A program made the position numbers and the translations under genes. The notes beneath the pieces were generated by a model. It was not told the origin of the DNA, ran no database searches, and saw only the letters and a program-made list of their open reading frames with translations. This document shows positions 8,424 through 25,134 of a stretch of 64,000 bases of DNA, in pieces. This DNA comes from Chloroflexota bacterium (GTDB lineage: Bacteria; Chloroflexota; Anaerolineae; J036; Brachytrichaceae), in assembly GCA_023382055.1 (NCBI GenBank), contig JAMCQN010000151.1, forward strand, positions 1 to 64,000. Reading direction: 5' to 3'. How positions within the stretch are numbered: position 1 is the first letter of the stretch; each line of letters starts with the position of its first letter.

Positions 8424-9383
8424 TCAGGCGAATTTGCGCGGGTGCTCGTGTCTGGAGACTTCGTCCAGTTCAACCCGTTCCTGTGACGACAGGTTCCAGC
8501 CTAACGCACCCAGGTTCTCATCGACATGCTCGGGACGATCGGGCCCAATGATGATCGAAGTGATTTCCGGATGACTCAGTATCCAGGCCATGGCAACTTG
8601 CCCCGGCGTTTTACCGCGGGTGGCTGCCAGGTAGATCAGCTTCTGAACGATCTGGTCCGCCTGCTCTGACATTGCCAGTTCGAAATCATAAGAGCGAGAC
8701 CCGCCCGCCCAGGGAGTGCCAGCCGGCGGAGGTTGACCGCGCCGGAAAAGCCCGGTTAACAATCCGATTGCCAACGGGCTGTAGGTCATCATCCCCAGGC
8801 CGTATTTCCTGCACAGCGGCATAAGCTCCGGTTCAACCTCGGCGCGGTTCAGCAGGTTGTATTGCGGCTGGATTCCGATGAATGAATCCAGACCCCAGGC
8901 TTCACACTTCCAGAGAGCCTCGCATACCTGCCAGGCGTTGAAGTTGCAAGCGCCAAAGTAACGGATTTTGCCCTGCCGCGCCAGGTCGTCCATCGCTCGC
9001 ACGGTTTCTTCAATGGGCGTCGTTTCATCGAACCCGTGCAGCAGGTAGATGTCAATATGGTCCACCTCAAGCCGTTTCAGGCTGCGCTCCGCTTCGCGCA
9101 TGATGTGATACCGCGATGAACTGCGGTCATTCGGACCGGGCCCGATGCGGCTGTGCACCTTTGTAGTTAACACGATGTCGTCGCGTTTGCCTTTCAACGC
9201 TTTGGCGACAATCGATTCCGTGCCGTACACATTCGCGCAGTCGATAAAGTTAATGCCCTGTTCAATGGCTCGTTCGATTGTTCGAATGCACAACCCCTCG
9301 TCATTACGGCTGCCACGGAAGGCTGTGCCCAGACAGACAGGTGATACCTTCACACCGGCTTTACCTAAATTCCTGTACTCCAT
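8424..9383 (-). CDS. Aldo/keto reductase
   Basis: NAD(P)H-dependent (beta/alpha)8 oxidoreductase of 319 residues. The catalytic tetrad is visible as Asp48 and Tyr53 (NFIDCANVYG), Lys75 (LTTKVHS) and His116 (YLLHGFD). The C-terminal IIIGPDRPEHVDENL binds the cofactor phosphate region. It resembles the YakC/Kv-beta-like group acting on sugars and small aldehydes. GGGGAG lies 5 bases before the ATG. It follows an SDR in the same minus-strand run, so both could act on the same carbonyl series. Substrate unknown. Confidence 0.88.
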   Translation of the reverse strand: MEYRNLGKAGVKVSPVCLGTAFRGSRNDEGLCIRTIERAIEQGINFIDCANVYGTESIVAKALKGKRDDIVLTTKVHSRIGPGPNDRSSSRYHIMREAERSLKRLEVDHIDIYLLHGFDETTPIEETVRAMDDLARQGKIRYFGACNFNAWQVCEALWKCEAWGLDSFIGIQPQYNLLNRAEVEPELMPLCRKYGLGMMTYSPLAIGLLTGLFRRGQPPPAGTPWAGGSRSYDFELAMSEQADQIVQKLIYLAATRGKTPGQVAMAWILSHPEITSIIIGPDRPEHVDENLGALGWNLSSQERVELDEVSRHEHPRKFA

Positions 9384-9423
9384 ACAACTCCCCGCTTATG
9401 TCGGTATCGGTTCGCAATTGCAT

Positions 9424-10176
9424 TCAACCTGTCGCGCCCTTGACGCTCCACACAGAACCGGTTGTATAAGTATTGCGCTCCGAAGTGAGTATTTCGACAA
9501 CTTCCGCAACCTCTTCCGGGTCAGAGTACCTTCCCAATGGCACGGGCGGATTGGCGATGTGTTCTGCGGAAAAACGCGGAACCACCATCTGCGTCAGCGC
9601 CCGGCCTGGTTCAACGCCATTCACGAAGATGCCCTGCTTGGAGTAGGCGTTGCCCAGTGAAGAAACGATGGACGTCACGGCGCCTTTCGAGGTGCTGTAG
9701 GGAACCTGGTTGGGAGAACCGAAGCGCGCGCCCGACGTGATGGTCACACAGCGGCCCCAGCCGCGCTCCAGCATATAGGGAATGGCCGCATGATGGGCAT
9801 AAAACACGCCATAGACATTGATTTTCAGCACGCGGTCAAAAAGCTCCGAAGTTTGCTCCAGGAAGGACAACTCCTTGCCCAGGATGCCCGCACAGCACAC
9901 CAGGATATCCAGGCGCCCGAAGGTCTCAACAGCCTTTGCCATCAACGCATTGACCGCAGATTCATCGGTCACATCCGTGTTCACGAAGATGGCCTTCTGG
10001 CCCAGCGCCTCAACTTCCTTGACAACATCATGACCGATATCCAGAACATCGGCGATTACGATATCGCGTCCTGCTTCGGCAATCCGTAATGCGCAGGCGC
10101 GCCCCAACCCGCGCGCTCCGCCGGTAACAACTGCGACACGCCGCTCTTTGGGCGCGGCAAAACGTAGATTTGGCAT
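9424..10176 (-). CDS. Short-chain dehydrogenase/reductase
   Basis: SDR of 250 residues with TGGARGLG at 18-25, VCCAG replacing the usual NNAG, and a catalytic ITSGAR...YSTSKGA triad region. The C-terminal end TYTTGSVWSVKGATG is slightly unlike the standard GxxxxVDGG tail. It sits between a sugar-isomerase gene and an aldo/keto reductase on the same strand, so a polyol or keto-sugar substrate is likely. AGGA precedes the start. The Cys-rich NNAG variant is unusual but seen in related SDRs. Confidence 0.85.
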   Translation of the reverse strand: MPNLRFAAPKERRVAVVTGGARGLGRACALRIAEAGRDIVIADVLDIGHDVVKEVEALGQKAIFVNTDVTDESAVNALMAKAVETFGRLDILVCCAGILGKELSFLEQTSELFDRVLKINVYGVFYAHHAAIPYMLERGWGRCVTITSGARFGSPNQVPYSTSKGAVTSIVSSLGNAYSKQGIFVNGVEPGRALTQMVVPRFSAEHIANPPVPLGRYSDPEEVAEVVEILTSERNTYTTGSVWSVKGATG

Positions 10177-10193
10177 GGTTATCCTGCTTTTGT

Positions 10194-11060
10194 TTAGTTT
10201 TCCAGCAACTTAATGCCCAACTCGTCAGCCACTGTGTGAAACAGGGCGCTCACCTGCGGAAGCTCGTCGGTCGTGTTTCCTTCGGCAATGACCGGGTAGG
10301 AGGAATCCAAAGCCTCCATCCTCCGGAATAGCGTTCGGAAATCCATCAAGCCTTTGCCCGGGCAACCATCATGCAGATGCAGGGCGAGACGGTTCTCGAT
10401 CCAGATATCTTTTGCATGGCAACTGACGATATATTTACCCAACACATCGAAATGATGGTTGACAGCCGCGCCGGTGTTATACACGGTTTCTCGCGTGATC
10501 CAGTTTGCGGAGTCATAGTCGCTGCGTACCCATGGAGAGTTGACTTCAGCGAGGATGTCCCGCGTCACCTCAGCCGACTCGAGTACGACCAACTGATGGC
10601 CCTCCAGACTCAAGTAGACGCCGGAATCTTCCGCAGCGTGGGCGCACTCTTTCAGGCTCTTAACAAGTTGCGCGCGGCTGACGGTCGTCCAGTTATCCGG
10701 ATGAGGGAACCACGGGCCGGCGGTATTCATCGATCCCGGTCCGGTGTCGATCCCGCGCGCGCCCATCCAGCCCGCCAGTCTCAACGCAGCCTGAACGGTC
10801 TTAACGCCCTCGCGGCGCAATGTTTCATCGGGCGTAACCAGGTTCTGCCAGAAGCCGGTTGCCTGATACAACCGTACTCCATTATCGGCCAGGACCTGGC
10901 GCAGCCGGTCAGCCTTCGCCTTCGGCGTGTCATTCGGGTTATTCCTGCGGAAACGAGTAAAGATTCCGCTGAAACCCAGTTGCCTGACGCGACCGCACAT
11001 TTCCGGCGTCACAGCGTCCATATCATCAGGCAGAAAACAACCGCTCATACCTAAACGCAT
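10194..11060 (-). CDS. Sugar phosphate isomerase/epimerase-type TIM barrel (AP endonuclease 2 family)
   Basis: Xylose-isomerase-like TIM barrel of 288 residues. Metal ligands of the family appear as the Glu of YLSLEGHQL, the Asp of VRSDYDSANW, the His of SCHAKDIW and the Glu of PVIAEGN. The ORF track starts it at 11216, but AGGAGG at 11066-11071 lies just before the ATG at 11060 and the family fold begins at MRLGMSGCF, so the upstream 52 codons are rejected. It is first in the minus-strand catabolic run, facing a divergent class II aldolase gene. Probably isomerises or dehydrates a sugar or inosose-like intermediate. Confidence 0.84.
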   Translation of the reverse strand: MRLGMSGCFLPDDMDAVTPEMCGRVRQLGFSGIFTRFRRNNPNDTPKAKADRLRQVLADNGVRLYQATGFWQNLVTPDETLRREGVKTVQAALRLAGWMGARGIDTGPGSMNTAGPWFPHPDNWTTVSRAQLVKSLKECAHAAEDSGVYLSLEGHQLVVLESAEVTRDILAEVNSPWVRSDYDSANWITRETVYNTGAAVNHHFDVLGKYIVSCHAKDIWIENRLALHLHDGCPGKGLMDFRTLFRRMEALDSSYPVIAEGNTTDELPQVSALFHTVADELGIKLLEN

Positions 11061-11316
11061 ATCGACCTCCTGAGACTGCTCAGTATAGGATGAAGAAGAC
11101 GACGTAAGTATATGGATGCATCGAGAATGATGCAATCGGTTGTCATTAGCGCAACAGCAATGTTTCCAGACCCAAGCACAAACGTGTTGCCGGGTGCTAG
11201 AATTTCTGCATTCCACCGGCGGAACTCATGTAGTGCGCATACATTATTATGCCGAGTCACAAGGCAAAAGCACATAAACTATTGCCTTGCAGGATCATTA
11301 ACAGGAGACACATCCT

Positions 11317-12141
11317 ATGCCAATCGAAGCACCCTACCCTGAGCTGGACGAGTTAATGGAGTTGATCGGACTCGCTGGACGTCGGCTTTCTGAGATTGAG
11401 GCAAGCGAAGGCGCGGCTGGTAATATTTCGGTCTATATCGGCTGGCCAGTAGACCCACGCCGTAAGTTCCCCAACATCGAGGTCATTCCCCTTCCCGACT
11501 CATACCCGGAAATAGCGGGGGCATCTTTTCTGGTGAGTGGTTCCGGCCGGCGACTGCGCGAGATCATCGATGATCCTGGCGCAAACCTGGGATACGTCAC
11601 AGTTAATCCTGACGGAAAGACCGCAAATCTGTATACATCCGGCCGGCGGTTATTCGCACATGTGACGAGTGAATTCAACTCTCATCTAGCCGTACATCGC
11701 GATCAGATCATCAGAACAGGGACCAATTTTCATGCCGTCATCCATGCACAGCCGTTGCATTTAACTTACCTCAGCCATATTGCCCGCTATAGAGATGAGA
11801 GCTATCTCAATCGCCACATCCTGCGCTGGCAACCGGAGACTATCGTCAACCTGCCTGAAGGTGTTGGACTCTTGCCGTTTATCCTTCCGGGTTCGCCCGA
11901 GTTGATGGCGGGCACAGTCGAAAAACTGCGCCGTCACCGCGTCGTCGTATGGTCCAAACACGGTGTCATGTCGCGCTCGGACAATTCGGTAAAGCGCGCT
12001 GGTGACCGCATCGAGTATGCCGAAACCGGCGCACGTTACGAATACTTGAACCTGGCGAACAACGAACAAGGCGAAGGTTTGAGTGTTGAGGATATCCAAT
12101 CAATCTGTATGGCTTTCAGCATCGATCAGAGCATATTTTGA
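11317..12141 (+). CDS. Class II aldolase, rhamnulose-1-phosphate aldolase-like
   Basis: The 274-residue product matches the zinc class II aldolase/adducin family, close to RhaD in length and layout. EGAAGNISVYIG near the N-terminus binds substrate phosphate, FLVSGSGRRLREI follows, and zinc ligands are expected in VIHAQPLHLTYL and WSKHGVMSRS. RhaD splits rhamnulose-1-P into DHAP and lactaldehyde. AGGAG lies upstream of the ATG. It is transcribed divergently from the minus-strand catabolic run, with about 256 bases between, where shared regulation could sit. No rhamnose isomerase or kinase is in the window, so I leave the symbol blank. Confidence 0.82.
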   Translation: MPIEAPYPELDELMELIGLAGRRLSEIEASEGAAGNISVYIGWPVDPRRKFPNIEVIPLPDSYPEIAGASFLVSGSGRRLREIIDDPGANLGYVTVNPDGKTANLYTSGRRLFAHVTSEFNSHLAVHRDQIIRTGTNFHAVIHAQPLHLTYLSHIARYRDESYLNRHILRWQPETIVNLPEGVGLLPFILPGSPELMAGTVEKLRRHRVVVWSKHGVMSRSDNSVKRAGDRIEYAETGARYEYLNLANNEQGEGLSVEDIQSICMAFSIDQSIF

Positions 12142-12556: not shown

Positions 12557-12820
12557 GTGAAAACTGCTCTGGCAAATTGGAGACGCCCAGGAGATCCCGA
12601 GTACCGCCTCACTATCCAGCGCAATGCACCAACATTGATCATCTATGTCTGTCAGACGTGCAGCGCTACCACATGCAGCCGGCACCACGATCATCTGACC
12701 GAACTCGGTTGGATTGCCGACAAACCGCCCAAAAACGCTGTTGAATTTCAACGCGTCAACGGCACTTGCCCCAAGTGTGCCCAGTTAATCAAGACCGCTT
12801 CTCCATCCAGGAGAAAGTAG
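12557..12820 (+). CDS. Small putative zinc-ribbon protein
   Basis: An 87-codon ORF with a GTG start preceded by AAGGAG five bases upstream, a strong sign that it is translated. It has a CQTC pair followed by another Cys in the middle and CPKC near the C-terminus, so four or more cysteines could bind zinc. The tail is basic (SPSRRK). A 10-bp hairpin lies just after its stop, as expected for a one-gene transcript. I do not recognise the family. It could be a small regulatory or nucleic-acid-binding protein. Confidence 0.55.
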   Translation: MKTALANWRRPGDPEYRLTIQRNAPTLIIYVCQTCSATTCSRHHDHLTELGWIADKPPKNAVEFQRVNGTCPKCAQLIKTASPSRRK

Positions 12821-13074: not shown

Positions 13075-14163
13075 GTGGTCAATACATTCGAGGTCCAGGT
13101 CACACCGGACTGGCGTGGTTTCGTGAACTCCATCACACGAAGAAGCAAGCCGCGGCGCGTACATTTCATCGAATTGTTCCTTGACTCGGAAGTGCAGGTC
13201 GCCGTCTGCGAGCGTTTTCACCTGCTTGACGAACTGGATAATCGCGATCCCCACTTCGAACTGAAACGCCAGGTTCTTCTACAGCGTTTCCTCGGTTATG
13301 ACTATGTGCGCTGCGGTCTCGATGACTTTGATATGACGCTGAACCGGCAGGCTGTTGGCGACACGGCTGCGCTTGAACGCGCCGGCGGGCGAAGCTATGT
13401 TGACGAACACGCCGGGCCGATCACGTCCTGGAAGGAATTCAAAAGCTACCCCTGGCCGGACCCACTGACTGCCGGCACGCGCTCCATTGAATGGTACGAC
13501 AGCAATCTTCCCGATGACATGTGCATCATCGCCAGCGGTGGTTTCGCCCATTTCGCCGAATACTTGAACTGGCTGATGGGCTATGAGACATTGTGTTATG
13601 CCCTTCACGACCAGCGCGACCTGGTCGCTGCGATCAGCCGCAAACTGATCGATCTATATTCCGTCGTCATAAAGCGCCTGCTGCAGTTTAAGCGCGTGAA
13701 GGTGGTCTGGGGCAGCGACGACATGGGATTTCGCTCCGGCACCTTAATCAGCCCCTACGACTTGCGCGAGTTCGTGCTACCCGGGCATAAACTGATGGCG
13801 GACATCGCACACCAGGCGGGATGTCCATACCTGCTGCATTCCTGCGGCAAACTGGATGCAATCATGGACGATCTCATCGATGATGTGCACATCGATGCGC
13901 GACATTCCTTCGAGGATACGATCGAACCGGTAACACTGGCCATGAGACGATACGGCGACCGCATTGCCATGCTGGGCGGGATTGACCTTGACTTTTTGTG
14001 CCGCGCCGACGAGCAAATGGTGCGCCAGCGCGTGCGCGAAACGCTGGACACATGCTTACCGCTGGGCGGGTATTGCCTGGGCACAGGCAACAGTGTCGCG
14101 AACTATATCCCTCTCGATAATTATCTGGCAATGCTGGACGAAGGGCGGAAATATCAGGTATAG
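13075..14163 (+). CDS. UroD-like protein 1 (methyltransferase-type, HxCG...C metal motif)
   Basis: Belongs to the uroporphyrinogen decarboxylase fold family (COG0407), which includes heme-pathway HemE and cobamide methyltransferases MtaA, MtbA and CmuA. The 362-residue protein has HSCG at 255-258 and Cys334 in GGYCLGTGN, the His-x-Cys...Cys arrangement that binds zinc in the methyltransferases. Other family landmarks are VVWGSDDMGFRSG and IAMLGGIDLDFL. The GTG start has AAGGAGA upstream and a good promoter precedes it. True HemE is unlikely, given this motif and the sugar-catabolic context. No corrinoid protein gene is nearby, so its acceptor is unknown. Confidence 0.8.
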   Translation: MVNTFEVQVTPDWRGFVNSITRRSKPRRVHFIELFLDSEVQVAVCERFHLLDELDNRDPHFELKRQVLLQRFLGYDYVRCGLDDFDMTLNRQAVGDTAALERAGGRSYVDEHAGPITSWKEFKSYPWPDPLTAGTRSIEWYDSNLPDDMCIIASGGFAHFAEYLNWLMGYETLCYALHDQRDLVAAISRKLIDLYSVVIKRLLQFKRVKVVWGSDDMGFRSGTLISPYDLREFVLPGHKLMADIAHQAGCPYLLHSCGKLDAIMDDLIDDVHIDARHSFEDTIEPVTLAMRRYGDRIAMLGGIDLDFLCRADEQMVRQRVRETLDTCLPLGGYCLGTGNSVANYIPLDNYLAMLDEGRKYQV

Positions 14164-14175
14164 AGGAAAAACAAC

Positions 14176-15231
14176 ATGCATGAATATCGAATCGCGGTCT
14201 ATCCTGGAGACGGCATCGGCATCGATGTCATTGCCGAAGGTGTCAAGGCGCTGAAAGCATCAGCCGGCCGGTTTGGGTTTTTGCTGAAGATGACGGAGTA
14301 TAACTGGGGTCATCGTTATTGGCGCGAGACCGGCCAAGTCGCGCCTGACGACTTCCTGGAGATACTGAAACCGTACGACGCCATCTACCTTGGAGCGGTC
14401 GGCGACCCGCAAAATCTACCAGACCATATTACGCTTGTTCCGCTGATCAAGCTGCGTCAAACGTTCGACCAGTATGTGTGTCTTCGCCCAGTGCAACTGC
14501 TTCCCGGCGTCACCACTCCGCTCTGCGACAAGCAGCCCGGCCAGATCGACATGATGGTTGTAAGGGAAAACTCGGAAGGGGAATATATCGATGCCGGCGG
14601 AGCGTTCAAGGTGGGTCGCGACGACGAGTTGAGCATGCAGACAGCCATCCACACCCGCAAGGGGGTCGAGCGCATCCTGCGTTACTCGTTTGAACTGGCG
14701 CGCAAACGGCGCCGGCATATCACTATGGCGACTAAATCAAACGCGATGAAGTATGCCATGGTCATGTGGGATCGCATCCTCGCGGAAGTGGCGCCGGATT
14801 TTCCCGATGTGCGTTTCGACAAGTGCCATATCGACGCGCTCTCGATGAATTTCGTGCGCCAGCCCGAGCAATATGATGTTGTCGTCGGCTCTAATTTGTT
14901 CGGCGACATACTGAGCGATCTGGGCGGCGCGATCGTAGGCAGTCTGGGATTGGCGCCCAGCGCAAACATACGGCCTGATCGTCAATACCCTTCTCTATTC
15001 GAGCCGGTACACGGGTCTGCCCCCGATATTGCCGGGAAGGGGATTGCCAATCCCATTGCGGCGATACGCAGCGCGGCGATGCTGCTCGATTTTCTGGGAG
15101 AACCTGGAGCAGCGCAGGCTGTTGAGGCGGCAGTAATAGCCAACCTGGCCGAGGGCCGCGTCCGCACGCCGGATATCGGCGGCCGTCATACGACGAGTGA
15201 TGTGGGCGATGACATCGCGGCACGCATTTAG
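14176..15231 (+). CDS. Tartrate / D-malate dehydrogenase-like (isocitrate/isopropylmalate dehydrogenase family)
   Basis: A 351-residue beta-decarboxylating dehydrogenase that oxidises a 2-hydroxy acid and usually releases CO2, with NAD and a divalent metal. It starts with [15 protein letters not shown] and has [19 protein letters not shown]...[12 protein letters not shown] follows, then the Asp metal ligands in [11 protein letters not shown] and the [18 protein letters not shown] cofactor loop. The substrate loop and the FDQY-LRPV block resemble tartrate dehydrogenase/D-malate decarboxylase more than LeuB or Icd. It is 12 bases after UroD-like 1, with AGAGGAAA before the ATG, so it is in the same operon. 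Substrate choice is inference. Confidence 0.82.
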
Positions 15232-15269
15232 AAAGTCCGGAGCCTGGACGCCGATTACGCCCAACACAC

Positions 15270-16331
15270 ATGGAGAACTCACAAGAGCTGATAACGCAGG
15301 CATGCAATGGGATTCGCCCTGCGCGCACGCCCATCTTTGACCTGTTGTTGAACGATGCGGTTATCGCGCACTTTGCAGGGAAAGCCTTTGACGGCACGGA
15401 CGATGAGGATGTGTCAATCCGCGCCATCAACAGAGCACTCGACGGCAGCCGCCACATCGCCGTGCCCGACATCGCAGGGCGCACCTGGACGGATGAGCAG
15501 GGCAACGAGCACGTCGCCGATCGTTGGACAAGTTGGATCCAGCATCATGCGCTGACGACCTCCGACGAATGGGCCGCATGGATAAAGACAGACATCGATC
15601 GTCTTGAGTCGCAGAGCTGGCCGACCGGTGAGCAGCGTGAGTGCGCGAGAAAAGATCAGCAGCGTCTGAACCAGAGACTGGGCGGCGCCGCGTTCATCCA
15701 TTGCACGCCGTCCACCGGCATCAACGATATGCTGTTCGGGCGGAATATCGGGCTGGCAACGTTCTCCTATCTCTGGGCGGATGAGCGTGATCTGATGTTG
15801 CGCTGGATGCGCGCTATCGAGAAAGAACAGCGCCGCTATATCGATCTGACAGCCCATCGTGATACCAGTAACCTTGCCATGATCTACTCGGATGTGGCAT
15901 ACAAGCAGCACGCCATGTTCAGCAAACACACATTCCGTGCCTTCGGCTTCTTCGACGATGTAGCCGGTATCTGCGCCAGTTGCCATGCCAAGGGCTTGCA
16001 GGTGATCTTTCATTCGGACGGCGACATCATGGCGATCGTCGATGACCTGGTTGCCGCCGGGATTGATGGCCTTAACCCGCTTGAGAAGGCCGCCGGCATG
16101 GATGTGTACGCGCTGCGCAGACGCTACCCGCAACTGATCCTGGTCGGCGGTGTCGATGTGACGCATCTTCTGAGCGAGGGCAGCCCGGCGGAAATTCGCA
16201 GTGAGACCCGCCGCATGATTCGCGAACTGGGCAGTGAGGGTCGTTTACTGATCGGCAGCTCGACGGAGGTCAGCGATCACGTCCCGCTGGCAAACTACCT
16301 GGCCTTTCGCGATGAAGTCATGCTTGGCTGA
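15270..16331 (+). CDS. UroD-like protein 2 (lacks the cysteine metal motif)
   Basis: Second UroD-fold protein of the cluster, 353 residues. It keeps family landmarks such as QVIFHSDGDIMAIVDDLVAAGIDGLNP and LILVGGVDVTHLL. At the metal site it has HSDG (248-251) instead of HSCG, and the C-terminal cysteine position reads LLIGSSTEVSD, with no Cys. It therefore cannot bind zinc the way paralogues 1 and 3 may. Start ATG at 15270 has no good ribosome site, but the spacing to the upstream stop (38 bases) suits an operon. It may be a decarboxylase-like or hydrolytic variant. Function unknown. Confidence 0.75.
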   Translation: MENSQELITQACNGIRPARTPIFDLLLNDAVIAHFAGKAFDGTDDEDVSIRAINRALDGSRHIAVPDIAGRTWTDEQGNEHVADRWTSWIQHHALTTSDEWAAWIKTDIDRLESQSWPTGEQRECARKDQQRLNQRLGGAAFIHCTPSTGINDMLFGRNIGLATFSYLWADERDLMLRWMRAIEKEQRRYIDLTAHRDTSNLAMIYSDVAYKQHAMFSKHTFRAFGFFDDVAGICASCHAKGLQVIFHSDGDIMAIVDDLVAAGIDGLNPLEKAAGMDVYALRRRYPQLILVGGVDVTHLLSEGSPAEIRSETRRMIRELGSEGRLLIGSSTEVSDHVPLANYLAFRDEVMLG

Positions 16332-16343
16332 CAGGCCAACTCC

Positions 16344-17276
16344 ATGAACGCCAAAGAAAACTATCTCGCAGCAATCACCTTCAGGGAACCGGAGTATGTC
16401 CCGCTTGGCAACGAACCGGTCTGGCATACTTTCCAGTTCGAAGGCAATTTCCGACAAGCCACCTGGACGGATCATTGGGGTGTGGACTGGGAGGTTGGCC
16501 TTGCCGATACCGTGCCATTCCCAAGGGGAAATCCGCTACCCGGCCTGGAGCGCCTGGACGACTACCAATTCCCCGATCCGAACCAGCTTCAATATACGGA
16601 CGAGATGAAAGACGCGCTGCAGGATGTGGATCATGGCGCACAACTGGTCAAGGGGGAGCTGACTTATCTGCTCTTTGAACGCGCCTGGGCCATAACGGGC
16701 ATGGAAAACCTGATGATGGGTTTCGTCAGCCACCCCGCCGAGATGCACCGCTTCCTGCACGGCATCGCCGGTTACGCGCGGGCTGTATTTGACCGCTACC
16801 TGGGCCTCGGCGTCGACGCCATCGGATTCTCGGAAGACCTCGGTTCACAGCGCGCGCTGATGATATCACCCGCCATGTTTCGCGAGTTCATCCTGCCGGA
16901 GTACCGCTACTGCTTCGAAAACGTATTGAAGGCGGGTAAGATCGTGCATTTCCACAGTTGCGGCTGTATCCATGCCATCGCGAAGGATCTGGCCGGTATC
17001 GGCGTCTCCATCCTCAATCCGATCCAGGCGCGCGCCAATGACCTGCCCAGGATCAAGGCAGACACGCTGGGGAAAATGGCTCTGCACGGCGGTATTGACA
17101 CGGCATTGCTCGCCAGCGGCACACCGGAAGATGTGCGATCCGAAGTCGCCCGAATCATGGCGATACTCAAACCGGGCGGCGGCTATATCTGCGCGCCCGA
17201 CCAGGACATTCCGGGCATACCGGAAATCAACCTGCAAACGCTGTGGCAGACGGCCAGACAGTTAGGCCGTTATTGA
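16344..17276 (+). CDS. UroD-like protein 3 (HxCG...C metal motif)
   Basis: Third UroD-fold paralogue, 310 residues. HSCG at 204-207 and Cys283 in GGYICAPDQD repeat the possible zinc site, with the same 77-residue spacing between the two cysteines as in paralogue 1. DAIGFSEDLGSQRALMISP and MALHGGIDTALL are family landmarks. It follows paralogue 2 after 12 bases, so the three are surely co-transcribed with the dehydrogenase. It is shorter at the N-terminus than paralogue 1. It could form a complex with the others, or act on the same compound. Confidence 0.78.
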   Translation: MNAKENYLAAITFREPEYVPLGNEPVWHTFQFEGNFRQATWTDHWGVDWEVGLADTVPFPRGNPLPGLERLDDYQFPDPNQLQYTDEMKDALQDVDHGAQLVKGELTYLLFERAWAITGMENLMMGFVSHPAEMHRFLHGIAGYARAVFDRYLGLGVDAIGFSEDLGSQRALMISPAMFREFILPEYRYCFENVLKAGKIVHFHSCGCIHAIAKDLAGIGVSILNPIQARANDLPRIKADTLGKMALHGGIDTALLASGTPEDVRSEVARIMAILKPGGGYICAPDQDIPGIPEINLQTLWQTARQLGRY

Positions 17277-17319
17277 CCCTATAATCCAGGTTGGATACCA
17301 AACGATAAGGAGTGCTAGC

Positions 17320-18186
17320 ATGACCCAATTTCCCAGAACCATCGTCGGCGGCGTTTCGCTATCGCGCATGATCATCGGAACAAACTGGTTCCTCGGTTGG
17401 AGCCACACAACCCGCGCCAAGGACGATTTCATCAAGGAGAATATTGCAGACCGCAGGAAGATCGCCGATATCGTCGAAGTCTATCTGAAAGCCGGTGTCG
17501 ATACCATCATGGGGCAGATTGCGCATCCGCCCCTGGCGGAGGGCATCAAAGAAGCCGAGGATCGCACCGGAAAGCGCGTCATCATCATATCGACGCCTGC
17601 GTTCCCGATAGTCCCGGAGACGCCATCCAAGGGCTTTGATCTTGGCGCTGTAGAAAAGATACTGGATAAGGAAGTCAAGTACGGTGCGACATTCTGCATG
17701 CCGCATCAGATGACCACCGATGCGATGGTGGACCGCTGCACGCGCAGCATCCGCCACATGGATCAGTTGTGCCGTCTGATCCGCGAGCGCGGAATGATCC
17801 CCGGCTTGAGCACGCACATGCCGGAAAGCATCATCTATGCCGATGAGACAAAGCTGGATGTCGAAACGTATATATCCATTTACAACTCCATGGGCTTCCT
17901 CATGCAGGTCGAGGTGGACTGGATCGCCAAAGTGATACGCGAAGCAAAGAAGCCGGTCATGACAATCAAGCCGATGGCAGCCGGCCAACTGCGCCCCTTC
18001 CAGGGCTTGACATTCGTCTGGAATACGCTGCGGCCGCAGGATATGGTAACCGTTGGAACGATGACACCGAAGGAAGCCGCTGAAGTGATCGAGATGTCGC
18101 TGAGTATCCTGGACAATCGTCAGGCTGAGCTGCAATTGCAGGAGACACGCTCCAAGACGTCCGTCAAGCAAAGAGTCCCGGCCTGA
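17320..18186 (+). CDS. Conserved TIM-barrel protein of unknown function
   Basis: Protein of 288 residues with an AAGGAG site before its ATG. The start TIVGGVSLSRMIIGTNWFLG recalls the first strand of aldo/keto reductases, and later segments (MGFLMQVEVDWIAKVIREAKKPVMTIKPMAAGQ, split here for reading) look like successive barrel strands. I cannot find an AKR catalytic tetrad. It is 43 bases after the third UroD-like gene and is followed by a terminator, so it looks like the last gene of that operon. I suspect a lyase or hydrolase-type TIM barrel, but the function is not known to me. Confidence 0.65.
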   Translation: MTQFPRTIVGGVSLSRMIIGTNWFLGWSHTTRAKDDFIKENIADRRKIADIVEVYLKAGVDTIMGQIAHPPLAEGIKEAEDRTGKRVIIISTPAFPIVPETPSKGFDLGAVEKILDKEVKYGATFCMPHQMTTDAMVDRCTRSIRHMDQLCRLIRERGMIPGLSTHMPESIIYADETKLDVETYISIYNSMGFLMQVEVDWIAKVIREAKKPVMTIKPMAAGQLRPFQGLTFVWNTLRPQDMVTVGTMTPKEAAEVIEMSLSILDNRQAELQLQETRSKTSVKQRVPA

Positions 18187-18207
18187 AACACACGCCAGTT
18201 ATTGAAC

Positions 18208-18250
18208 ACGCGAAGCGCAACATTTCATTGCTGCGCTTCGCGTTTGTTTT
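18208..18250 (+). terminator. Rho-independent terminator after the UroD-like operon
   Basis: Stem ACGCGAAGCGCA / TGCGCTTCGCGT (12 bp), a 12-base loop and the T-rich tail TTGTTTT. It comes 20 bases after the stop at 18186. It also rules out the ORF track's early start (18202) for the next gene, which would lie inside the stem. Confidence 0.8.
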
Positions 18251-18270
18251 GTGAAGCGGGAGTTGATGAC

Positions 18271-19527
18271 ATGACAGGATCGAAAATCCGCCTGGGGATT
18301 GTAAGTTGCGGGTATATCACCGGCGCGCATCTGCGCGGCCTGAAGATTCTGCGCGATAGCGGATACGGCCAGTTCGAGCTGACTGCATTGTGCTCGCGGA
18401 AAGCGGAGAACGCGGAGCGCTGGATCGAGCGCGGCAAAGGCCCTGCCCCACTGCCTCAGGTCTCGGACTGGCCGGACGATCCGTTGAACGTTCGCGATGT
18501 ATGGGTGCGGGATTTCCAACCGAACACTCCGCGTGTCTACACCGATCATCGCGACATGCTGCGCGATCGCGCTGTCGATGCGATCGTCGTTCTGTCAGCG
18601 GTCTCCGCCCACTACCCGATTGCTTCAGATGCACTGGATTACGGGGTGCACGTCTTCATGGAGAAACCTTTTACCATCACCGCCCGCGCCGCAATGCGCC
18701 TGATCGAGAAAGCGGCTGCGCGCGGTCTGTCGCTGGGCGTCGCGGAGAACCTGCGTTACCAGGAAGGCACGCGTGCGAACGGATGGGTTATCCAGTCTGG
18801 TATGCTTGGCAAGTTACAGATGGTGGTCATGGGTGGTATCGGCAGTGTCTGGTCCCCAGACCATATCGTTGCGCGCACCGCGTGGCGACATCTCATGAAC
18901 GAAGCCGGTGGCGGCGGCACGATGGACGTCGGCGCTCATCTATTCGATAAGCTGAGGTACGAATGCGGAGAAATTGAGGAAGTATCTGCTCTGGCGCGCA
19001 CCATAGAGCCCGACCGTTATACGCGCGATGCAAATGGCCAGGTGGCGGCGCATGTGGCATGCGACGCCGACGACACCTTCTTCGCACTCCTGCAGTTTGC
19101 CAATGGCGCGATCGGCAATGTCGTGTTCTCCTGGGCCGGTCACGGCGAACACACACAATTTGACGCCGGTGGAGCCATCTATGGGCAGAAGGGCTGCCTG
19201 AAAGGGGGCCGCGTCTTCATCGCCGGCAATGATCCAAAAGACGTGCTGTCGTTGTTTCGCGATCAGGCTGACCGCTCGGTCACAAACCGATTCTTCCCTC
19301 ATCAGATCAAGGATAGCTTCGCGCTGGAACTGGGCGAATTCCTGAGCGCTATCGAAGCAGGGCGCCAGCCGGAGACCAGCGGCACGGAGGGTCTAAAGGA
19401 CATTGCACCTGGTCTGGCTATTCTGGAATCATCACTGCTTCATCGACCCGTACGGGTAGCCGATGTGGAAGCCTGCCGCATTGAAACTTATCAGCAGGCG
19501 ATCAACGAGCGCTGGAATATCACGTGA
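18271..19527 (+). CDS. Gfo/Idh/MocA family oxidoreductase
   Basis: NAD(P)-dependent sugar or polyol dehydrogenase family with a Rossmann N-domain (IRLGIVSCGYITGAHLRG) and the EKP motif in VHVFMEKPFT, whose Lys is catalytic in relatives. GGGTMDVGAHLFD carries the family Asp/His pair. I start it at ATG 18271 (418 residues) with GGGAG upstream, because the longer form overlaps a terminator. The N-domain has an insertion (PLPQVSDWPDDPLNVRDVW) not common in the family. It is followed by an SMP-30-type lactonase and an SDR, together fitting an oxidative sugar route. Substrate unknown. Confidence 0.87.
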   Translation: MTGSKIRLGIVSCGYITGAHLRGLKILRDSGYGQFELTALCSRKAENAERWIERGKGPAPLPQVSDWPDDPLNVRDVWVRDFQPNTPRVYTDHRDMLRDRAVDAIVVLSAVSAHYPIASDALDYGVHVFMEKPFTITARAAMRLIEKAAARGLSLGVAENLRYQEGTRANGWVIQSGMLGKLQMVVMGGIGSVWSPDHIVARTAWRHLMNEAGGGGTMDVGAHLFDKLRYECGEIEEVSALARTIEPDRYTRDANGQVAAHVACDADDTFFALLQFANGAIGNVVFSWAGHGEHTQFDAGGAIYGQKGCLKGGRVFIAGNDPKDVLSLFRDQADRSVTNRFFPHQIKDSFALELGEFLSAIEAGRQPETSGTEGLKDIAPGLAILESSLLHRPVRVADVEACRIETYQQAINERWNIT

Positions 19528-19531
19528 GTTG

Positions 19532-19560
19532 GTGTCAACCATAAAGAAAGTGGTTATAGT
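19532..19560 (+). promoter_or_regulatory. Possible promoter before the SMP-30-like gene
   Basis: GTGTCA, a 17-base spacer and TATAGT. The -10 is good and the -35 matches four of six. It is about 43 bases before the ATG at 19603. Tentative. Confidence 0.35.
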
Positions 19561-19602
19561 AGAGTCCTCGGTCGAGTGCAATCAATGAGCCAGGAGGTAT
19601 TC

Positions 19603-20463
19603 ATGGAACCGCAGTTGATAGCTGATTATGCATGTGTGGTGGGCGAAGGCCCAATGTGGCATCCGTATGAAAAGAAAGTGTACTGGGTTGACATCGTGAC
19701 TGGACGCATGTTTCGCTACGATCCAGCCACACAGCACCACGAACAGATTTACCAGGGCGACCCGATCGGGGGATACACCATCCAGGATGACGGCGCATTA
19801 TTGTTATTTATGAACAAGGGCGCAGTGAAGATCTGGCGCGAAGGTGCACTCAAGACGGTCATCGACGAAATTCCCGATGAACGCGAAACGCGCTTCAATG
19901 ATGTCTTTGCCGATCCGGTCGGGCGAGTGTTCTGTGGCACAATGCCCACAGCGGATCGTAAAGGGCGCCTGTACCGTCTTGACACGGATGGGAAACTGAC
20001 CATCCTGCTCGAAGGCATTGGCACTTCTAACGGGATGGGCCTCACGCCCGATCGCAAACACCTGTACTATACCGACTCAGAAGCCCATTCGATCTACATC
20101 TTTGACTACGATCAAGCCAGCGGATCGATCAGCAATCAGCGCATATTCAAGCAGACACCGCCGCAAGAAGGATTGCCGGATGGCATGACCGTCGATGCAG
20201 AAGGCTGTGTGTGGTCAGCGCATTGGGATGGCGGTTTCCTGGTCCGTTTCTCCCCGGCCGGTGAGGAGCTGATGCGCATCCAGTTCCCTGCGCGCAAGGT
20301 ATCCAGTGTCATATTCGGCGGCGATGATTACACGGATATGTATGTGACAACCGCCGGCGGGGATCACAAGGAAACGGATGGCCCGCTGGCCGGCAGCCTG
20401 TTCAAACTGAACCTCGGCATCCGCGGCGTTCCGGAATTCTTCTCACGCATCAAAGCATCTTAA
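19603..20463 (+). CDS. SMP-30/gluconolactonase-like beta-propeller
   Basis: A 286-residue six-bladed propeller lactonase of the SMP-30/regucalcin family, which hydrolyses sugar lactones using one divalent metal. The start CVVGEGPMWHPYEKKVYWVDI carries the metal Glu. TRFNDVFADPVGRVFCGTM and GTSNGMGLTPDRKHLYYTDS supply the Asn/Asp ligands, followed by PDGMTVDAEGCVWSAHW. AGGAGGT lies just before ATG 19603; the ORF track's GTG start is not supported. It follows a Gfo/Idh/MocA dehydrogenase, a natural source of a lactone. The precise lactone is unknown. Confidence 0.9.
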   Translation: MEPQLIADYACVVGEGPMWHPYEKKVYWVDIVTGRMFRYDPATQHHEQIYQGDPIGGYTIQDDGALLLFMNKGAVKIWREGALKTVIDEIPDERETRFNDVFADPVGRVFCGTMPTADRKGRLYRLDTDGKLTILLEGIGTSNGMGLTPDRKHLYYTDSEAHSIYIFDYDQASGSISNQRIFKQTPPQEGLPDGMTVDAEGCVWSAHWDGGFLVRFSPAGEELMRIQFPARKVSSVIFGGDDYTDMYVTTAGGDHKETDGPLAGSLFKLNLGIRGVPEFFSRIKAS

Positions 20464-20480
20464 CGCGGAGGCAGAGCACA

Positions 20481-21263
20481 ATGGCGGAAAGCACGGGGAA
20501 ACTGGCCGGGAAACGGGCGCTTGTCACAGGCGCCGGGACCGGGATCGGTCGCGAGGTGGCGCTGGAATTCGCCCGACAGGGCGCCGACGTCGTGTTGCAC
20601 TACGCTGCCAGCCGTAAGGGTGCAGACAGCGCTGTTGTCGAGATCAGCAGCACAGGGCGCAAGGCTTGCGCGATGCAGGCCGATCTGGGCAAGGTTGATG
20701 AGTGCTTTCGCCTGGTGGACTCAGCATATGAATTCCTGGGCGGACTCGATATCCTGGTCAATAACGCCGGCGTCACCGAGGTGTGGGACTTCATGGATGT
20801 CACGCCGCAACAGTTCGACAGCCTTTACAGCGTCAATATTCGCGGAGAGTTTTTCTGCGCCCAGCGCGCGGTGTCGCACATGTTGAAGTCGGGCGGCGGC
20901 GCCATCGTGAACCTGACCTCGGTGCACGGTTTTGCCGGTATGCCGGGACACTCCGTCTATGCAGGCACGAAAGGCGCCATCATAGCCTGGACGCGCGAGG
21001 TCGGCATTGAACTGGCTGCAAAGAATATCCGCGTCAATGCGGTAGCGCCGGGCTGGATAGAGGTCGAGAGTCACTACACCAAATACGCGGACTATGACGT
21101 GAGCGCCGCAGGACGGCAGATACCGCGAGGCCGCGTCGGCCAGCCGATTGACGTCGCGAAAGCCTGCGTCTACCTCGCTTCAGACGATGCCGACTTCGTC
21201 GTCGGCCATGTCATGCTGGTCGATGGCGGAACCATTGCGCTCATGTCGCTGGCTGCGTTGTAG
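20481..21263 (+). CDS. Short-chain dehydrogenase/reductase
   Basis: SDR of 260 residues with TGAGTGIG at 17-24, NNAG, NLTSVHG and the YAGTKGA active-site block, and a FVVGHVMLVDGG tail. NAD(P)-dependent. GGAGG precedes the ATG, 17 bases after the SMP-30 gene, so they are in one unit. Likely a glucose-, galactose- or fucose-type dehydrogenase acting before or after the lactonase; which of these cannot be told. Confidence 0.87.
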   Translation: MAESTGKLAGKRALVTGAGTGIGREVALEFARQGADVVLHYAASRKGADSAVVEISSTGRKACAMQADLGKVDECFRLVDSAYEFLGGLDILVNNAGVTEVWDFMDVTPQQFDSLYSVNIRGEFFCAQRAVSHMLKSGGGAIVNLTSVHGFAGMPGHSVYAGTKGAIIAWTREVGIELAAKNIRVNAVAPGWIEVESHYTKYADYDVSAAGRQIPRGRVGQPIDVAKACVYLASDDADFVVGHVMLVDGGTIALMSLAAL

Positions 21264-21272
21264 CTTTTCGTT

Positions 21273-22652
21273 ATGAGCATCTACAAGGCATGTGATATTC
21301 GTGGCAAGTACGGCGACGAATTGCGCAATGAGCACGCCGTCCGTTTAGGACTGGCGCTTGCGCAATACTGCGGAAAAGTTGACGTTTTAGTCGGCGGCGA
21401 TGGACGTCTGTCAACGCCTGCGTTGCAGTCCCACCTTGTTGCAGCGCTGAGATCAGCGGGATGTCGTGCCGTCAACCTCGGCAGCGTGCCGACTCCGGCG
21501 CTTTACTTTGCCCGCAGACACCTGGGAATTCCAACGGCCGTCATGGTGACTGCTTCTCACAACCCGGCTGCCGACAATGGTTTCAAGCTCTCGCTGGGTA
21601 CATTACCCATCACGCCTGAGGATATCGTCACCCTGTCACAGATCATGGAGAACCTGCCCGATTCACGCATCCATTCGGCCCAGCAGACGGTGGCTCCGGT
21701 AGGCGGCGTTCGTTCATTCAATGTACTGCCGGATTACATCGCCTTCGCGCAAAGCCAGGCGCGCGCACTGGATGACATGCGGGTCGTCGTTGATTGCGCG
21801 AATGGCGCCGCTGCGCTGGTTGCGCGCGATGTATGGCAAAACACCGGCGCACGTGTGAGTTACCTCTTCGACGCAGTGGATGGGACCTTCCCCAACCATG
21901 CTCCCGATCCCAGTAACGCCGGAAGCCTGCACGCTCTACAGAAGGAAGTTGTCGCACAACAGGCGGATCTCGGCGTCGCCTACGATGGGGACGGTGACCG
22001 GGTCGTGTTCGTCGACGAGCATGGACAGCCGCTCTCCGGCGACCGCGCCATCGTGCTGTTTGCACGAGAAGCACTGCGGGCAGGACCCGCACCCATCGTG
22101 TACGACCAGAAATGTTCGCTGATCGTGGCTGAGGCCATTCGCAACGCCGGAGGACAGCCGATTATCGAGCGCTCGGGGCACACCTTCATCAAAACTTCCT
22201 TCCTGAAACAGGGTGCGCCGTATGCGGGTGAGATCAGCGGGCATCACTTTTTCCGGCTCCTGCAGGGCGACGATGGCATCATCGCGTCCCTCTATATGGC
22301 AAACATGCTGCAGAAGTCCGGCACGAGCCTGGCGCGCCTGGCTGAATCCATCAAAACATACCCTATCACGCCCGACATCCGACTGAAGATGGACAGCGCG
22401 ACGGCGAACCGCGTGCTGAACGATCTGGAGCGCGAACTAATCGGTGAAGCGCAACTGGTCAAACTGGACGGTCTGCGCGCGGAGTTTACCGATGGCTGGG
22501 GCATTGCCCGCCTGTCCGTGACGGAACCGGCTATGACATTGCGCTTCGAGGGAAAGGACACGGCCAGCTTGAATCGCGTGATGCATCGCTTCATGCAGGC
22601 CGCTCCGGACCTGGCGGGACGGCTGCCCATCGCTAATTCGGTATCCGGGTGA
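21273..22652 (+). CDS. Phosphomannomutase/phosphoglucomutase
   Basis: Alpha-D-phosphohexomutase of 459 residues, interconverting hexose 1- and 6-phosphates through a phosphoserine. It shows the N-terminal YKACDIRGKYG, the phosphoserine loop VTASHNPAADNG, the metal loop AYDGDGDRVVF and the sugar-binding GEISGHHFF. The C-terminal phosphate-binding FTDGWGIARLSVTEP reads as RxSxTEP. All four domains are present. It follows the SDR after 9 bases without an obvious ribosome site, suggesting coupling. It may link the sugar route to nucleotide-sugar synthesis. Symbol withheld because manB and pgm cannot be told apart. Confidence 0.9.
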   Translation: MSIYKACDIRGKYGDELRNEHAVRLGLALAQYCGKVDVLVGGDGRLSTPALQSHLVAALRSAGCRAVNLGSVPTPALYFARRHLGIPTAVMVTASHNPAADNGFKLSLGTLPITPEDIVTLSQIMENLPDSRIHSAQQTVAPVGGVRSFNVLPDYIAFAQSQARALDDMRVVVDCANGAAALVARDVWQNTGARVSYLFDAVDGTFPNHAPDPSNAGSLHALQKEVVAQQADLGVAYDGDGDRVVFVDEHGQPLSGDRAIVLFAREALRAGPAPIVYDQKCSLIVAEAIRNAGGQPIIERSGHTFIKTSFLKQGAPYAGEISGHHFFRLLQGDDGIIASLYMANMLQKSGTSLARLAESIKTYPITPDIRLKMDSATANRVLNDLERELIGEAQLVKLDGLRAEFTDGWGIARLSVTEPAMTLRFEGKDTASLNRVMHRFMQAAPDLAGRLPIANSVSG

Positions 22653-22812
22653 GTACCTCAAGCGCCGCAGCGGATTGGATACCTCATTCATAAGGATTCC
22701 TGTCAAATCCGCGTATACTTGGGACACTGTCCGTTTAGCCGCACTCCACTGCGCCCGATATGGTCTGTAATATTGGTTGATGTTGTTGTGTAACGTTTTG
22801 AGACGAGGTCAT

Positions 22813-23649
22813 ATGGCAGATAGACTGAACGACCAGCAGATGGCTTTCTACCGCGCCTTTGGTTACCTGCACTTTCCAGGATTGCTCAACGACCGCATCG
22901 AGCAGATCACAGCGGAATTTGAAGCTTTGTTTGCCAGCAAAGGCGGCGGACACTACGGTAAACCGCACGATGGGAAGGCGCGCTCATGTATCGTGCCATT
23001 CATCGATCAGAACGAATACCTCTGCAGCCTGCTCGATGACCCGCGCATCCTGGCAATCGCGTGCAGCCTGTGCGGAGATGACTTCGTCTATTCCGGCAGC
23101 GACGGGAATTACTATGTCGGCGATACCGGTTGGCATTCCGACGCCCGCTCCGCCAGATACCCCTATGTCAAAATCGCTTTCTACCTCGACCCTTTAATAC
23201 GCGACACTGGAGCGCTGCGAGTTATACCGGGCAGTCATCTCATGGGTGACCGGTTCAGCGACCAACTGCAGCAGGAGATCGGTCGAAGCGATACGAACTG
23301 GGGAATAGCGGGCAAAGATGTTCCGGCTGTAGCGCTCGAAACCAGGCCGGGCGATCTGGTTTGTTTCAATCAGAACCTGAAGCACGCGTCTTTTGGCGGG
23401 GGACAATCGCGGCGCATGTTCACCATCAACCTGACTTCGCGCTTCACCGAAGAGCGCATGGATGACATGCATGCCTACATCAGTTCGTTTGCGCGCTTCT
23501 GGGTCGACCGCGTATACGGTGAGGCGATGATTCGCACGGCGACTCCGGAGCGGCTCAAGCACCTTGAACAGGTCATGGCAAACGATGGATTTCTGGCGGA
23601 TCTTTCGCGCAAGGCGCGCGAGACGATGCCGGAGCCCGCGCGCGGCTGA
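22813..23649 (+). CDS. Phytanoyl-CoA dioxygenase (PhyH) family protein
   Basis: Non-heme Fe(II)/2-oxoglutarate oxygenase of 278 residues. The iron triad is visible as the His and Asp of GWHSDARSARYPYV and the His of NLKHASFGGGQSRRM. The Arg shortly after binds 2-oxoglutarate, and YLDPLIRDTGALRVIPGSH is a typical PhyH strand. Start ATG 22813 has GACGAGGT upstream; the ORF track's longer start has no support. It hydroxylates an unknown small molecule. The next gene encodes a diiron protein, so two iron oxygenase-type genes are adjacent. Confidence 0.87.
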   Translation: MADRLNDQQMAFYRAFGYLHFPGLLNDRIEQITAEFEALFASKGGGHYGKPHDGKARSCIVPFIDQNEYLCSLLDDPRILAIACSLCGDDFVYSGSDGNYYVGDTGWHSDARSARYPYVKIAFYLDPLIRDTGALRVIPGSHLMGDRFSDQLQQEIGRSDTNWGIAGKDVPAVALETRPGDLVCFNQNLKHASFGGGQSRRMFTINLTSRFTEERMDDMHAYISSFARFWVDRVYGEAMIRTATPERLKHLEQVMANDGFLADLSRKARETMPEPARG

Positions 23650-23739
23650 TCTATACAGCCACTGTAGTTGAGGTCGATTTCCAGCCAGGTCTCGCGATGT
23701 ATTGGTCTGGATGATATAGGAGTCAGTGAGGATTAGAAA

Positions 23740-25134
23740 ATGGCGGATGTAAATAACCTGAGCATTACCGGTCAAACGATTGAACCCGTGTCGCGCCCTG
23801 ATCAACGACAGGCTGCGATAGAACGGCGCAAAGCGTACCCATACAAGTTCCCGCGCGAACGGCGGAAGATAGGCGGAAAATACAACGTCGCGGAGAATTC
23901 GCGGCGCCTGCTGCGTTGGTTCTACTTCGAGCGCCGGCTGGCGCATGGACTAGGGTCCTGGACACTCACGATCCCCGACTTTGAAGTGAAGATTGAAACC
24001 GGACGGCACATCTTCTGGCATATGGACGCGGCGCGCAGGCTGCGCGACCGTCTTCTGGAACAGGAGATGCGCAAGGCGCATGTCGACGACTTCCGCGATG
24101 CTGAGATCGATACCTTCATGGATGAACTGCTGTCAGCCAAGGACCCGCCCGAATTGCTGGTGGGGGTTCATCAGGTCATCGGCCGCGCCCTGGAGATTGC
24201 CTACCGCCATCATGTAGACGATACATGCCCGATCACGGACGCGCCGACAATCCGCATGATCCGGCAGATCCTGCTGGATTACGAGCCGATGCTGGCGTGG
24301 GCGGAACAGGCGCTCGCGGCCTATATCGATGGCGGTGTGGATGAATCGCGGCTGGAACGGTGGCGCTGGCATCTGGCCCGTTTGCTCGTCAGTATCGGCG
24401 GCGCAACCGGCGCTGATGAGCGCGGCCAGAGCCCTGCCCCTCTGCGTATCGATACGAAACCTTACGAACGCAAAACGGCGCCATGCCGCGACAGCCGTTT
24501 TGATACCTTTCGCACTACCGGCGACTACAACCTTGCGGACGGCCAACCGCGTTACGAGATCGGAAGTTATGAGGACGCTCGCCTGCGTTTCGTGCGCACC
24601 CAGCGCGATGAAGTGGATGCGATCGAGGCGTTCGGCACGTTTTTATGGGACATCCGCTTCAAGGATTTCCAGGCTGAATATGATCTGGCCCGTATCACAT
24701 GGGACGAAGCGCGCCACACCGAAATCGGCCACCAAACGCTGCTGGCATTCGGTTACGATCCCTATGAACTGCCAAACCGATTGACCAGCAGCACCTGCCG
24801 CGGCCCGATGGAACCTGCCTACGCGATGGCGGAGATCAACCTGTTTGGGGAGGTCGGCGTGTTGAAGACCATCAACGATCTGGTAGACAAGGCGCGCGAT
24901 CGCAACGACTCGCTCCTCTTGCATATCAGCGACTTCGTCCGCGCCGACGAGCGCACGCACGTCCGCAAAGGCCAGCATATCCTGCACGTAATGACTGATT
25001 TGGGCATGCAAGACCTGGAATTCCGCACCCGCGAACTGTTCACCGAATGCCTGGTCAACCTGGGCGTCGTAAAAACTGAAGCAAACTTCGGCATCATCAC
25101 GCGCGAGGAACTCGAGCACTACATCGGCGAATGA
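23740..25134 (+). CDS. Ferritin-like diiron protein, two-part
   Basis: A 464-residue protein whose C-terminal half has the full diiron four-helix pattern: a Glu in RDEVDAIEAF, ExxH in WDEARHTEIG, a Glu in AMAEINLFGEVG and a second ExxH in RADERTHVRKG. The N-terminal half is also helical (FWHMDAARRLRDRL, VHQVIGRALEIAYRHH) but lacks a clear second iron set. It resembles the DUF455/MiaE-like ferritin relatives. It may be an oxygenase or oxidase. GAGGA precedes the ATG, 90 bases after the PhyH gene. Function unknown; the iron-binding call is firm. Confidence 0.75.
   Translation: MADVNNLSITGQTIEPVSRPDQRQAAIERRKAYPYKFPRERRKIGGKYNVAENSRRLLRWFYFERRLAHGLGSWTLTIPDFEVKIETGRHIFWHMDAARRLRDRLLEQEMRKAHVDDFRDAEIDTFMDELLSAKDPPELLVGVHQVIGRALEIAYRHHVDDTCPITDAPTIRMIRQILLDYEPMLAWAEQALAAYIDGGVDESRLERWRWHLARLLVSIGGATGADERGQSPAPLRIDTKPYERKTAPCRDSRFDTFRTTGDYNLADGQPRYEIGSYEDARLRFVRTQRDEVDAIEAFGTFLWDIRFKDFQAEYDLARITWDEARHTEIGHQTLLAFGYDPYELPNRLTSSTCRGPMEPAYAMAEINLFGEVGVLKTINDLVDKARDRNDSLLLHISDFVRADERTHVRKGQHILHVMTDLGMQDLEFRTRELFTECLVNLGVVKTEANFGIITREELEHYIGE

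Follow-up and report, generated by a model that had tools for sequence, protein, structure and literature searches.

An operon that combines three UroD-fold proteins (U1, U2 and U3) with genes of sugar-acid type was identified in an uncultured Chloroflexota bacterium. The three proteins belong to the UroD superfamily but are distinct from HemE and diverged from one another long ago, and none of them is predicted to make heme. Their predicted metal-site triads, H-C-N in U1, H-D-T/E in U2 and H-C-D/Q in U3, all differ from the H-C-C triad of MtaA. The operon lies in a 64,000-nucleotide stretch of DNA (hereafter, the window; contig C35) from a 3.88 Mb genome (G000) that is 83% complete and encodes 27 URO-D proteins. 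The number of UroD-fold proteins in a genome of this class can reach 55 or more, and a reaction is known for hardly any of them; the operon sets three in a defined sugar-acid context, with the reading of their metal sites corrected. The anatomy and conservation of the operon are solid; the earlier reading of an MtaA-type zinc site is not.

Nine genes on the same strand, headed by U1-IDH-U2-U3, extend from 13075 to 22652 with intergenic gaps of 9–81 bp (12–38 bp among the UroD genes and IDH), and the operon does not stop at the end of U3 (Table 1). The open reading frames and profile searches bore out the first-pass annotation in its account of three UroD-fold genes with an IDH-like gene: all three proteins scored above the PF01208 cut-off (23.9 bits), and IDH reached 481.2 bits against the tartrate dehydrogenase model TIGR02089 (curated cut-off 470.4), suggesting a tartrate/D-malate dehydrogenase-like enzyme with a putative substrate. 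Nearly all gene assignments in and around the operon point to sugar or sugar-acid chemistry, in agreement with the setting first proposed. P5 gave no Pfam match even at an E value of 1 and no NCBIfam match; its family occurs in 40 of 396 genomes of the class, is 55–60% conserved across it, and its sequence looks like a TIM barrel. The good promoter and terminator previously described did not stand out from shuffled sequence (promoter-like sites, 8 vs. 6.2 expected; terminator-like sites, 6 vs. 8.6), and no Rfam element was found at the locus. Downstream of the operon (22777–25134), the window encodes a PhyH-type oxygenase and a DUF455/diiron-like protein, in a genome that has an anaerobic acetyl-CoA pathway.

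Table 1 Genes of the UroD operon and its upstream neighbours in the window.
Feature	Position	Strand	Evidence or remark
U1, UroD-fold protein, 362 aa	13075..14163	+	PF01208, 57 bits; predicted triad H255-C257-N339
IDH, isocitrate/isopropylmalate-dehydrogenase family, tartrate/D-malate dehydrogenase-like, 351 aa	14176..15231	+	TIGR02089, PF00180
U2, UroD-fold protein, 353 aa	15270..16331	+	PF01208, 39 bits; H248-D250, predicted third residue Thr/Glu (HSDG...SSTE)
U3, UroD-fold protein, 310 aa	16344..17276	+	PF01208, 74 bits; H204-C206, predicted third residue Asp286/Gln287
P5, 288 aa, no Pfam/NCBIfam match	17320..18186	+	Profile searches
GFO/IDH/MocA sugar dehydrogenase, inositol-dehydrogenase-like	18268..19527	+	TIGR04380, below cut-off
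SGL, gluconolactonase-like lactonase (SMP-30/gluconolactonase)	19600..20463	+	PF08450, 251 bits
Short-chain dehydrogenase (SDR)	20481..21263	+	
Phosphohexomutase (PGM/PMM)	21273..22652	+	
Class II aldolase, rhamnulose-1-phosphate-aldolase-like	11317..12141	+	Conserved upstream neighbour in G284 and G302
Possible small Cys-rich protein, 87 aa, in the aldolase-U1 interval	12557..12820	+	Similar DNA in G284
Divergent sugar-type genes: xylose-isomerase-like TIM barrel, SDR, aldo/keto reductase	8424..11216	-	Conserved in G284

We compared the predicted metal sites with that of MtaA (4AY7; ligands H246/C248/C325, chain numbering). The first-pass annotation had assigned U1 and U3 the His-x-Cys...Cys zinc site of MtaA/MtbA/CmuA from an HSCG motif (residues 255–258 and 204–207, respectively) and a second Cys 77 residues after the first (Cys257 and Cys334 in U1, Cys206 and Cys283 in U3), and had set them apart from U2, with HSDG and no later Cys. 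The residues are as it described (U2 has HSDG at 248 and no Cys beyond 238), and the two ligand Cys of MtaA are also 77 apart; the site itself did not survive alignment. When a profile of 42 U1 orthologues was aligned to 4AY7, the three MtaA ligands fell on H255, C257 and N339 of U1, whereas U1 Cys334, five residues before Asn339, aligned on a Val. H255, C257 and N339 were invariant in all 42 orthologues, whereas Cys334 was replaced by V, V or F in three of them. Similarly, the third-ligand position fell on Asp286/Gln287 in U3. The predicted models place Cys334 (U1, 333–335) and Cys283 (U3, 281–285) in the last strand. Among 30 HxCG proteins, a Cys at +77 was found in U1 and U3 (and in MtaA itself), at alignment positions that differ between U1 and U3 and from that of MtaA's ligand; a zinc site based on the spacing of 77 was rejected on this mismatch. 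All 17 aligned U2-like sequences kept HSDG, and all kept the Glu in the S-[ST]-T-E stretch; the His-x-Asp site of U2 is conserved in its clade. The view that the operon contains two metal-site patterns was right in that the patterns differ, but alignment to 4AY7 and among the paralogues points to three rather than two; placement of the third residue is firm for U1 and less certain for U2 and U3. A full H-C-C triad was seen among the aligned proteins of this genome only in an MtaA-like protein (L052, contig C18), and also in one UroD protein of the corrinoid cluster of each of three congeners.

The U1 model (AF2; pLDDT 93.6) matched the UROD fold at a TM of about 0.70, and the PDB fold matches of the U3 model (AF2; pLDDT 78) included HemE and MtaA (4ay8, TMq 0.72); membership of U2 in the UroD superfamily follows from its profile score. 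Pairwise identities of 24–29% argue that the three are not recent duplicates. In the phylogenetic tree, the HemE proteins of congeners formed a clade of their own (100/100), and U1, U2 and U3 fell outside it in three separate clades, confirming that they belong to the superfamily but not to HemE, as first suggested. The best URO-D match of the genome is the MtaA-like L052; no HemE turned up among its proteins, the assembly being incomplete, whereas congeners encode HemE elsewhere than in the operon. One further UroD gene of the genome (L049, contig C67, 4906–6033) is broken by a TAG stop.

The UroD genes of the genome are not grouped by chance: of the 27, 12 lie within 5 kb of another, whereas 1.8 would be expected and none of 20,000 simulations gave more than 10; the probability of any three lying within 4 kb was about 0.01. 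Furthermore, U1-IDH-U2-U3 recurs in congeners. One congener (G302) keeps aldolase, U1, IDH, U2, U3, P5, an epimerase and SGL in order, and two others (G284 and G310) hold portions of the operon at contig ends. The P5-GFO-SGL-SDR-PMM half of G284 sits on another contig and other genes follow U3, indicating that U1-IDH-U2-U3 is the tighter module. In a genome of another family (G131, contig C100; L306, 2–6786), three UroD genes with H-C-N, H-D-T and H-C-H triads come after a sugar ABC importer, without a corrinoid gene, and in G007 a U2-like gene lies next to a 70% identical U1 orthologue in divergent orientation. UroD genes of the window's own genome often adjoin sugar-type dehydrogenases or importers (SDR, AKR, ADH, Gfo/Idh and tagaturonate epimerase among the neighbours).

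U1 belongs to a sharply defined family, with 59–71% identity among the best 80 of 208 loci, labelled as Chloroflexota, Planctomycetota, Armatimonadota, Hydrogenedentota, Verrucomicrobiota and others (these are MAG labels, and some may be misbinned). U1, conserved in many phyla, is a tractable target. Of the genomes sampled in the class, 28 contain an orthologue of U1 at 58–72% identity, as do genomes of other phyla; most lack U2 and U3, whose orthologues at 70% identity or more did not extend beyond the genus. Clustering of the 80 named loci (the best of 208) gave no common partner gene of U1 outside the genus, and a census of the adjacent genes revealed no methyl-transfer theme. A gene for an SHMT-GcvT fusion of about 1083 aa adjoins U1 orthologues in two family members (L084, 5352–8603; L094, 4627–7899). 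One U1 orthologue (L066; G043, contig C36) carries an in-frame DRKSTRLK insert that looks like sequencing adapter read as protein, and hence like an assembly artefact of that public genome.

We then considered the known systems. U1, U2 and U3 share with MtaA/MtbA/CmuA (TIGR01463) the fold and the positions of the His and the second ligand, and 4AY7 is the best PDB profile match of U1 by sequence; however, their matches to TIGR01463 are weak (E values of 9e-12, 4e-5 and 5e-10) and at 45, 23 and 39 bits, respectively, lie far under the cut-off of 235.4, placing them outside that family. The His and first Cys of the MtaA zinc triad are present in U1 and U3, but the third residue is not Cys, and the second residue of U2 is Asp. 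The corrinoid partner of MtaA/CmuA, fused or clustered, is absent from the operon, and with the genome 83% complete a partner in trans is possible. The O-demethylases/dehalogenases MtoB, OdmB, VdmB and CdmB belong to the same superfamily, but a corrinoid protein and MTII are usually encoded alongside them, whereas the window operon has none, and CdmB gave the sole, marginal sequence match (E value of 0.28). UroD-superfamily S-methyltransferases use His-Cys-Cys, whereas O-methyltransferases swap one or both Cys for carboxylates or non-ligands (PMC10418091), and CdmB, which has the UroD fold, can work without zinc (PMC13222342). U2 fits this trend, which makes it the best candidate for an O-substrate. 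Type 1 mlp gene clusters (Mlp1-3, corrinoid protein and RACE; PMC10418091) likewise bring three paralogous UroD proteins together, and a similar-looking cluster occurs in congeners (L256, L257 and L260); Mlps, however, retain His-Cys-Cys and the corrinoid and RACE genes, and the window operon, which has neither, falls outside this type. A literature search found almost nothing on UroD proteins outside corrinoid clades.

The first-pass annotation had reported no corrinoid-protein gene near the operon, and indeed neither a corrinoid protein nor a reductive activase is encoded on the contig. A search of the genome with PF02607 yielded two matches, both elsewhere: one in MetH, the other in an orphan cap domain of 81 aa (L051, contig C69, about 4720–4965), a stand-alone B12-binding helical cap with no cobalamin Rossmann domain behind it. 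The genome also contains a Wood-Ljungdahl cluster with a RACo-type activase (L034, contig C32, 2755–16368), whose remaining genes we take, from our own reading of their sequences, to encode CooS, AcsB (CODH/ACS), CFeSP subunits, AcsE, CooC-type ATPases and formate-THF ligase (FTHFS). Congeners have a separate corrinoid cluster of a corrinoid protein, a homocysteine S-methyltransferase-like protein (S-methyl_trans), DUF1638, three UroD proteins and RACo; such genuine corrinoid clusters of the genus, which include an H-C-C UroD protein, differ in look from the window operon.

UroD proteins outnumber corrinoid proteins (PF02607) by 41 to 1 in G036 and by at least 55 to 1 in G302, whose corrinoid protein is encoded on contig C117 (13693–14310). 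In G193 (contig C28), a sugar-type ABC transporter, UroD-A, a corrinoid protein and UroD-B are encoded consecutively; UroD-A is the best corrinoid-linked match of U1 (27% over 368 aa), and UroD-B is 36% identical to U3 and its sister in the tree (99/96). A close corrinoid-protein subfamily was present in 26 of 28 U1-bearing genomes and 77 of 368 others (Fisher P of 1e-14, from a hand tally and ignoring kinship). The lone corrinoid gene sits among housekeeping genes in G036 and G115 and adjoins a homocysteine-methyltransferase-like gene in G238, so that its product may be part of a methionine synthase in split form; since kinship is uncorrected and a split methionine synthase is a likely confounder, we do not take the co-occurrence as proof.

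Considering these results, we tentatively put first a putative O-demethylation in which a methylated sugar acid is the substrate and a corrinoid protein acts in trans. U2, with its carboxylate-type His-x-Asp site, would be the substrate-side O-demethylase for a methoxylated sugar or sugar acid, and U1 and U3 would act on a related methylated intermediate or on the receiving side of the transfer, each as a separate enzyme rather than part of one obligate complex. Each would bind one metal, probably Zn, by His and Cys/Asp at the barrel mouth; because CdmB functions without zinc, the metal itself, like these roles, is something we infer. A corrinoid protein encoded elsewhere would take up the methyl group and pass it on to tetrahydrofolate and so into the Wood-Ljungdahl pathway of this genome. 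Oxidation of the leftover skeleton would fall to the sugar dehydrogenase, the lactonase, the SDR and the decarboxylating dehydrogenase of IDH type, and its cleavage to the class II aldolase. This reading draws on the operon conserved in congeners (U1-IDH-U2-U3(-P5-...-SGL)), the corrinoid gene of G193, flanked downstream of a sugar importer by the nearest corrinoid-linked relatives of U1 and U3, the importer and triplet of G131, the gene pair of G007, the co-occurrence of U1 with the corrinoid subfamily, the published ligand trend, and the presumed CODH/ACS, CFeSP, AcsE and FTHFS with RACo in the genome. Against it are the lack of a stand-alone corrinoid protein in the 83% complete genome, the extreme UroD-to-corrinoid ratios, the possible split methionine synthase, the different look of the genuine corrinoid clusters of the genus and the absence of a methyl-transfer theme beside U1. 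If true, it would point to a way in which methylated sugars of plants or algae are used anaerobically.

A serious contender, only narrowly behind, is chemistry independent of corrinoids, in which a His/Cys/Asp-bound metal would prime a hydroxy acid or keto acid to lose its carboxyl group, or would promote C-O/C-C cleavage or isomerisation of sugar acids, the UroD steps running parallel to the dehydrogenases and lactonase; this would be new chemistry for the UroD fold. The excess of UroD genes over corrinoid proteins, the sugar-type neighbours of UroD genes in the genome, the replacement of the third ligand by Asn, Thr/Glu, Asp/Gln or His, and the fact that U1 orthologues occur in phyla and surroundings that show no corrinoid theme all argue for it, whereas the corrinoid-linked relatives of U3 and U1 argue against it. 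Furthermore, the characterised UroD-fold members with a His-x-Cys/Asp signature are known for methyl transfer or for the opening of epoxides.

O-demethylation might also operate, though we consider this unlikely, as a dispersed network in which dozens of UroD proteins with interchangeable triads (H-C-N, H-D-T, H-C-H and D-x-D...H), many encoded in sugar-import or sugar-acid operons, share one corrinoid protein in trans and act on a wide range of methylated sugars; its unit would be the mixed triplet seen in the window and in G131. Less probable still is a corrinoid-free transfer, of the kind catalysed by MetE or epoxyalkane:CoM transferase, in which a methyl or alkyl group goes to a thiol or to folate: among fold matches, MetE ranks directly behind UROD/MtaA, and the SHMT-GcvT fusion gene lies near U1 orthologues, but at two loci only, and U1, U2 and U3 have neither a thiol-type H-C-C site nor a folate domain. 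The heteromeric enzyme of all three proteins, earlier raised as a possibility, is improbable. Their closely adjacent genes around IDH and the second mixed triplet in G131 would suit it; however, U1 orthologues (about 60–71% identical) occur in many phyla without U2 and U3, whose orthologues at 70% identity or more are confined to the genus, which argues against an obligate complex, as do the low pairwise identities. A role for the three as genuine HemE or as redundant enzymes of heme synthesis, as their PF01208 matches might suggest, is refuted to near certainty by the separate 100/100 HemE clade, together with the missing NCBIfam hemE match and the H-x-C/D motif.
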